This document shows, piece after piece, positions 13,950-14,931 of a stretch of DNA of 64,000 nt. The translations under genes and the position numbers were made by a program. The DNA comes from Motilibacter peucedani (lineage in GTDB: Bacteria; Actinomycetota; Actinomycetes; Motilibacterales; Motilibacteraceae), in NCBI RefSeq assembly GCF_003634695.1, contig NZ_RBWV01000009.1:124001-188000 (forward strand). Direction: 5' to 3'. Every line of letters begins with the position of its first letter. Position 1 is the stretch's first letter. The notes under the pieces were generated by a model. The model did no database searches and was not told the origin of the DNA. It worked only from the letters and a program-made list of their open reading frames with translations.

Positions 13950-14225
13950 TCACCGCCCCACCGGGAGCAGCACGGCAGCCGGCAGCCACTCCTCGACGAG
14001 GTGCACCCGGTCGCCCTCGGCGACGGCGTAGACGACGCGGCCCTGCCAGCCCTGCGGGCCGCGGCGCCACTCGGCCAGGAGGCCCGGCCAGGTGCCGGGG
14101 TGGCCGGGCGGATCGCTCACCCAGCAGTGCCGTGCACCGGGAGGCTGCGCAGCAGCCGCGGCCCGGGCGGGCTCCGGACGCGGCAGCCCGCCCGTCCAGC
14201 CCCTGCGGTGCATGCCCCCGGCCAC
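13950..14225 (-). CDS. Small LexA-boxed protein, unknown (probable SOS gene)
   Basis: A 91-residue product of unknown function. The C-terminal two thirds look folded: RHCWVSDPPGHPGTWPGLL, then EWRRGPQGWQGRVVYAV and VHLVEEWLPAAVLLP, rich in Trp and Pro. Upstream on the minus strand are a perfect LexA palindrome (14243-14264) and a CATCCT -10 box 6 nt before GTG 14225, so it should be DNA-damage induced and leaderless. ATG 14213 is an alternative start. From memory, similar small ORFs occur beside translesion-polymerase genes in other actinobacteria; none lies nearby here. Confidence 0.65.
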   Translation of the reverse strand: MAGGMHRRGWTGGLPRPEPARAAAAAQPPGARHCWVSDPPGHPGTWPGLLAEWRRGPQGWQGRVVYAVAEGDRVHLVEEWLPAAVLLPVGR

Positions 14226-14231
14226 GCCACC

Positions 14232-14237
14232 AGGATG
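14232..14237 (-). promoter_or_regulatory. -10 element of the LexA-boxed small gene
   Basis: CATCCT on the minus strand lies 6 nt before GTG 14225 and directly downstream of the LexA box. Confidence 0.35.
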
Positions 14238-14242
14238 GCAGA

Positions 14243-14264
14243 CGGTCGAACACGTGTTCGACCG
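14243..14264. promoter_or_regulatory. Perfect LexA (SOS) box
   Basis: A 22-bp perfect palindrome with core TCGAACACGTGTTCGA, matching the Gram-positive/actinobacterial SOS consensus CGAAC-N4-GTTCG exactly. It lies 18 bp upstream of GTG 14225, at the -35 position of that gene, and 13 bp from the stop of the neighbouring gene. Confidence 0.85.
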
Positions 14265-14276
14265 GATCCGGCCTTG

Positions 14277-14699
14277 CTACATCCGCCGGCGCACCCAGGC
14301 CTGGGCACCGAGCGACACCGCTCCGTGGAGCGCCGCCAGCGCGGTGAACGGCCCCGCGTGGCCGTGGGCGAGCTCGAGGACCGCCCCGACGGCGAGCACC
14401 GGCGCCAGCGCGGCGGCCGCCGCGGAGGACGCCGTCGCCTGCACGCGCCGGTCGCGCTCGTCGGCGGCCGGCAGGAGCAGGTCGTGCACGACGTCGCGGT
14501 CGGGGACCAGGCGCGCCAGCGCTGCCCACCCGGCGAAGCCCACCGCTGCGACGACCGCGGCGGGGCGGTTGCCGCCGGCGAGCGCGGCGACAGTGACCGC
14601 GGTGCCCAGCGCGAGCAGGAGCAGCGGCCACCAGCGCGCGGCCCGTGGCTCGCAGTCGACCGCACCGTCACCCGCGGGTTGCTGGGACGTCGGCGTCAT
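14277..14699 (-). CDS. Membrane protein paired with XRE regulator
   Basis: A 140-residue integral membrane protein with about four hydrophobic helices (WWPLLLLALGTAVTVAALAGG; AAVVAAVGFAGWAALARL; ASSAAAAALAPVLAVGAVLEL; FTALAALHGAVSLGAQAWV). ATG 14699 lies inside the upstream XRE gene, a 32-nt overlap in another frame, so translation is probably coupled. Pairs of a short XRE repressor and a small membrane protein are common in Gram-positive bacteria, but their role is generally unknown. Confidence 0.75.
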   Translation of the reverse strand: MTPTSQQPAGDGAVDCEPRAARWWPLLLLALGTAVTVAALAGGNRPAAVVAAVGFAGWAALARLVPDRDVVHDLLLPAADERDRRVQATASSAAAAALAPVLAVGAVLELAHGHAGPFTALAALHGAVSLGAQAWVRRRM

Positions 14700-14883
14700 C
14701 GTGGAAGACCTCCTCGACCGGGGTGCGGAAGAGCCGCCCGATGCGCAGCGCGAGCGGCAGGCTCGGGTCGTAGCGACCGTTCTCGATCGCGTTGACCGTC
14801 TGGCGGGAGACCCCGAGCTGCGCCGCCAGGGCTCCCTGGCTGAGGCCTGCGCGCGTGCGCAGCTCGGCGACCTCGTTGCGCAC
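14668..14883 (-). CDS. XRE-family helix-turn-helix regulator
   Basis: A 71-residue Cro/CI-type DNA-binding protein. The helix-turn-helix is LSQGALAAQLGVSRQTVNAIE, followed by NGRYDPSLPLALRIGRLFRTPVEEVF, a typical short YgzD-like regulator. I chose GTG 14883 (VRNEVAELRTRAG) because this is where relatives begin and because a promoter (TTGACA, 18 bp, CATCGT) ends 6 nt before it. A dyad over the -35 box suggests self-repression. The longer open frame (TTG 14919) would run through the promoter. Confidence 0.88.
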   Translation of the reverse strand: MRNEVAELRTRAGLSQGALAAQLGVSRQTVNAIENGRYDPSLPLALRIGRLFRTPVEEVFHDDADVPATRG

Positions 14884-14889
14884 CTCGCC

Positions 14890-14931
14890 ACGATGCGCCG
14901 CGACAGGACCACCTGTCAAGCGTCCTTGACA
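14890..14931 (-). promoter_or_regulatory. Promoter and operator of the XRE gene
   Basis: On the minus strand, TTGACA (14914-14919), an 18-bp spacer and CATCGT (14890-14895) lie 6 nt before the start codon. The inverted repeat TGTCAAG-N4-CTTGACA (14914-14931) overlaps the -35 box, an ideal site for autorepression. Confidence 0.65.

Follow-up and report, generated by a model that had tools for sequence, protein, structure and literature searches.

The gene at positions 13950-14225 on the minus strand of the window (the whole 64-kb stretch of DNA analyzed here) belongs, with good confidence, to a new family of small proteins that spans the class and is repressed by LexA, and whose members are likely to be stand-alone adaptors or inhibitors that dock on a core machine of the cell. 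What the sequences show directly is the LexA box, its spacing from the start codon, the conserved open reading frame (ORF), the spread of the family among genomes, and the predicted fold, whereas its induction, leaderless translation, adaptor role, and target are inferred. The window gene itself has 91 codons and a GTG start, is probably leaderless, and appears to encode a small barrel protein under SOS control. The family had no previous name and has mostly been overlooked, and a search of the literature, mostly outside subscription journals, found no paper that describes it. By sequence, its members appear to be almost always tied to LexA/SOS control.

The LexA (SOS) box is found at positions 14243-14264 (no strand assigned), with a 14-bp core at 14247-14260, which is separated from the GTG start by 21 nt. 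Direct reading of this palindrome, CGGTCGAACACGTGTTCGACCG, confirmed that it equals its own reverse complement over all 22 bp and is centered on CGAAC-ACGT-GTTCG, so that the perfect palindrome with CGAAC-N4-GTTCG described in the sequence-only reading is borne out. The pattern CGAACnnnnGTTCG occurs once without mismatch in the 64-kb window, against 0.06 occurrences expected from Markov-1 shuffles, and there is one perfect 22-bp palindrome, where 0.15 are expected. Boxes with one mismatch, by contrast, occur at the level of chance (four versus 2.7), which means that the box count of the window is, by itself, weak evidence, and that it is the exactness of the box and, above all, its conservation that prove it.

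An extended -10-like element, TGCCATCCT, is located at positions 14232-14240 on the minus strand, with the TG at 14240-14239 preceding the hexamer CATCCT at 14237-14232. The hexamer ends 6 nt before the GTG, which places the expected start of transcription on the start codon, and a leaderless transcript, with its predicted start at the GTG itself, is thus a sound and probable reading. This arrangement of the box and the extended -10 would be that expected of a leaderless SOS promoter. The promoter consensus of the orthologues has the same order, with TCGAAC-N4-GTTCGA being followed by CGTGCnAnnCT, conserved at the extended -10 position, and then by the start codon. The box also fits the LexA consensus of Streptomyces venezuelae, tCGAAC-N4-GNNCGa (PMC9380542), and its match to this actinobacterial consensus, together with its fixed position in the orthologues, agrees with membership of the LexA regulon.

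Upstream of the box, a gene for a small membrane protein (14277-14699, minus strand) ends 13 nt before the palindrome, and is itself preceded by the gene of an XRE regulator (14668-14919, minus strand). As this pair (approximately 14277-14919) lies on the same strand as the small barrel gene and ends at 14277, and no divergent gene starts at the box in this locus, the box can serve only the gene at 13950-14225, just as the earlier reading had claimed. It is possible that the gene is also transcribed by read-through from the pair. The product contains six tryptophans and 12 prolines, in agreement with the Trp/Pro richness that had been noted previously.

Homologous loci were found at 59 sites in named genomes, mostly of the family Geodermatophilaceae. 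The start could be placed in 56 of these loci, which belong to Geodermatophilus, Blastococcus, Modestobacter, Goekera, Trujillonella, Motilibacter, Humibacillus, and metagenome-assembled genomes (MAGs). Of the placed loci, 53 have an exact box and the other three a box with a single mismatch, with a gap of 20-23 nt between the box and the start in all 56, and the proteins begin with M-A/V-G-G. An exact box is present in only 1.4% of random 190-bp windows taken from the same loci. The median dN/dS is 0.26 in the core domain and 0.23 in the N-terminal motif, and the family is, judging by these ratios, under purifying selection. Spurious ORFs are abundant in GC-rich DNA, and, given the chance level of the one-mismatch boxes in the window, the locus might be seen as a chance ORF that happens to lie beside a chance palindrome. 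The joint conservation of the protein, its start, and its box in 56 loci, together with the dN/dS of 0.26, makes this coincidence exceedingly improbable.

Further loci, both divergent and mobile, were recovered among 48 matches, in which some loci are counted twice, and these matches include 20 with an exact box and 20 with a box containing one mismatch. A recognizable box is absent, among the same matches, from the phage copies and a few others (L049, L154, L134, L139, L157, and L160), which indicates that SOS control is not universal in the family. The ORF and the box are kept together in the 56 placed loci and in divergent groups, rather than the box being conserved alone, which is the opposite of the outcome that the sequence-only reading had named as refuting. 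The proposal of a small protein under LexA control, by sequence, and with no described function is thus upheld.

The host genome, which was available as 17 contigs (4.19 Mb), contains 11 exact CGAACN4GTTCG sites, compared with three for the reversed control pattern. The box of recA in this genome has a 14-mer core, CGAACACGTGTTCG, that is identical to that of the window box, while ruvC is also among the genes with exact boxes, and lexA has a cluster of near-boxes. Five of the 11 exact boxes (L001, L005, L009, L010, and L011) precede large ORFs that resemble DUF222/13E12 genes, and the one of these five that was scanned matched DUF222 in Pfam. The presence of boxes at recA, ruvC, lexA, and the DUF222-type genes places the window gene in ordinary SOS company. 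Another exact LexA-like box (G000:C9:19299-19312, L002) is located between a membrane/ABC-2-like gene and the gene of a TetR-type regulator, which lie on opposite strands, and this site may be a TetR operator instead.

The protein is predicted to consist of a disordered N-terminal tail (residues 1-30, positions 14136-14225, minus strand) and a five-strand SH3/Tudor-like barrel (residues 31-88, positions 13962-14135, minus strand). The tail has a net charge of +3 and contains a conserved MAGGM and, in most relatives, the motif GRxGxSLxERAAxSG, although the short members of the Nocardioidaceae-like type lack the N-terminal motif. The barrel has a net charge of 0, and its conserved residues follow the pattern RHCWV...PGxWPGLLxEWRR...GWxGRVxYxV...LVExWLPAxxLxP. 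In the AlphaFold2 model, for which 30 sequences of the family were used as input, the barrel has a pLDDT of 93-95, with strands at residues 32-37, 45-56, 59-70, 73-82, and 86-88, and no helix.

Comparisons of this model with known structures recovered only generic small barrels, and were discarded as a clue to the identity of the protein. Foldseek returned no significant match (E-values of 0.6 and above), and the best fold match reached a Z of 7.2, against a mark of 8 for trust. The predicted barrel is similar to the eukaryotic Tudor/chromo-barrel domains of TDRD3, UHRF1, and MRG15, and the VIA-align comparison with TDRD3, for example, gave a Z of 7.0 and an rmsd of 2.0 over 52 residues, with 10% identity. 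This likeness is one of predicted fold, which supports neither common descent nor the binding of methylated residues, and the matches could simply reflect a common small-barrel arrangement. The window protein has no match among the Pfam, NCBIfam, PHROGs, and PADLOC profiles, and the only hit in PHROGs was a weak one (E 0.002) for another of the 30 members. The family profile gave only chance matches to the PDB sequences. The protein shows neither a catalytic site nor a membrane segment, as far as can be seen, and its small-barrel shape, lack of a catalytic signature, and conserved tail suggest that it is most likely a docking or adaptor protein.

Under this interpretation, LexA bound to the palindrome over the -35 region would block the RNA polymerase until damaged DNA activates RecA, which would lead, in turn, to the self-cleavage of LexA and the firing of the extended -10 promoter. 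The leaderless mRNA would then be translated into the 91-residue protein, with its flexible tail bearing a short conserved motif and its compact SH3/Tudor-like barrel. During the SOS response, this protein may dock on a conserved core machine, whether that of replication-repair, that of cell division, or the RNA polymerase.

The gene was found in 57 of the 394 genomes sampled from the class, and a phylum-wide sample yielded no family match outside this class. The host has a second copy (G000:C3:47227-47493; L036 9228-9503), preceded by a box with one mismatch, CGTACACCTGTTCG. This copy comes directly after the gene of a MobA/VirD2-type relaxase and has a resolvase nearby, and its contig may be a plasmid or an integrated element. 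One copy in another genome of the host's taxonomic family likewise has a MobA/VirD2-type relaxase at a distance of a few kb. Plasmid copies are found in Pimelobacter, Nocardioides, Yimella, Sinomonas, and Rhodococcus, of which those of the first four genera (L047, L048, L138, and L139) have no annotated gene, and ssb lies within a few kb of the family copy on the Pimelobacter, Yimella, and Sinomonas plasmids. In the neighborhoods examined, the families do not share any conserved operon partner, and the gene context thus does not point to the target. The neighbors that recur in the Geodermatophilaceae, named by eye, comprise an enzyme resembling 4-alpha-glucanotransferase, a DUF998-like membrane protein, a DMT transporter, and an EVE-like protein, and these neighbors, which reflect chromosomal synteny only, were set aside as a clue to function.

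A second group, formed by proteins of approximately 100 residues, was reached through weak matches, with 36 of the 151 genomes of one family being positive. These cousins are assigned to the Mycobacteriales on the basis of named relatives on plasmids of Mycolicibacterium alvei, Nocardia, and Rhodococcus. The alignment of the two profiles by hhalign gave a probability of 96.8% and an E-value of 2.5e-10 over 48 columns. In 34 of the 35 cousin loci, a box with no more than one mismatch stands immediately before the start, usually at a distance of 3-5 nt, and the most common form, CGAACrTATGrTCG, contains a TATGAT-like -10. The box thus coincides with the -10 in the cousins and overlies the -35 in the window family, which represents the same LexA control, by sequence, in two promoter layouts. 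The model of a mycobacterial cousin, predicted from a single sequence, was poor (pLDDT 41.5), and the presence of its three C-terminal strands in the same order was not counted as evidence.

The sequence-only reading had suggested that the protein might be a partner of a translesion polymerase, and had proposed a search for orthologues next to dnaE2 or imuB. None was found beside dnaE2, imuA, or imuB at any of the loci examined. An accessory role in translesion synthesis with DnaE2, ImuB, or DinB would, nonetheless, be in keeping with the SOS control that the small-barrel gene has in common with dnaE2 and dinB. The actinobacterial ImuA-ImuB-DnaE2 mutasome is likewise under SOS control, but the small-barrel gene is linked to it neither by gene order nor by strict co-occurrence. 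The DnaE2 model was matched above the curated cut-off in 37 of the 57 gene-positive genomes and in 123 of the 337 gene-negative ones (Fisher p 7e-5, with shared ancestry uncontrolled), a positive association, but it was not matched above this cut-off in the other 20 gene-positive genomes, among them the host genome and those of the four other members of its family. In the host, one exact LexA box does have a DnaE-type polymerase gene and a DinB gene in its vicinity, but no ImuB-like protein was matched in the host genome, and both of the host's Y-family polymerases are DinB-like, with the DinB-type catalytic motif intact. The partnership with a translesion polymerase is not supported, and a translesion role, although possible, is singled out by nothing and is the least probable of the functional alternatives to the docking reading considered here. 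In the host region in question (G000:C12:421947-428481; L008 and L150), the exact box precedes a very long ORF of the DnaE type (around 1587 codons) by approximately 1 kb, and this ORF is followed by a methyltransferase-like gene, and then by the DinB polymerase.

Slightly less doubtful, albeit still unlikely, is a feedback inhibitor or other modulator of the SOS switch or of RecA, such as DinI, RecX, or the plasmid-borne PsiB, a role that would fit with the copies found near ssb on plasmids and on elements that encode relaxases. Against this, ssb is common on plasmids, and the family-model searches revealed no similarity to known modulators of RecA or SOS. Much the same modest probability attaches to an SOS checkpoint role, in which the protein would, like YneA, SidA, or DivS, stop the cell from dividing or slow its replication, given that the gene is small, stand-alone, and, by its sequence, tightly repressed by the SOS system. 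Known inhibitors of division in the SOS response that are of similar size are membrane proteins or face the cell wall, whereas the window protein is a predicted soluble barrel, composed of strands in the model and with no membrane segment of the YneA/SidA/DivS type. More generally, YneA, SidA, DivS, TisB, and DinI are each encoded, like the window protein, by a short, stand-alone gene under a LexA box, but they have no family model in common with it, and it lacks any predicted membrane segment or helix. In S. venezuelae, pvnz_37140, which is located on a plasmid and precedes a Pol IV gene, is SOS-induced and bound by LexA (PMC9380542). The small ORF that follows its box, TCGAACACGTGCTC, has neither sequence similarity nor an HMM match to the family, and this operon was rejected as a member; no members were recognized among the S. 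venezuelae LexA targets checked.

A broader version of the docking reading, which may be entertained at somewhat less than even chances, is that of an undescribed core SOS effector. In this scenario, one ancestral small barrel would have been kept under LexA in the Geodermatophilaceae, the Nocardioidaceae-like lineages, and the Mycobacteriales through the two promoter layouts, recruited by plasmids and phages, and would dock on a universal target of the response to DNA damage. The most constant trait of the family, besides its fold, is the LexA box, which makes it a strong candidate for guilt by regulation, and it may represent a step that has yet to be studied, whether in the repair of DNA, in checkpoint control, or in the tuning of the SOS response. 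The Geodermatophilaceae are known for their tolerance of radiation and desiccation, and the cousins occur in the Mycobacteriales, in which drug resistance is touched by damage-induced mutagenesis. Annotation often overlooks small orphan genes, as in the case of the plasmid copies described above, and the family offers a small set of promoters and proteins open to direct testing.

Family members are also carried by two viral contigs and, in addition, by the Microcystis phage MinS1 (L049, MZ923504.1), which encodes a DUF3263 protein in addition to the family member. The recorded host of this phage is a cyanobacterium, whereas the family was otherwise encountered here only in actinobacteria, their plasmids, and viral contigs, and the host assignment of MinS1 may deserve a second look.
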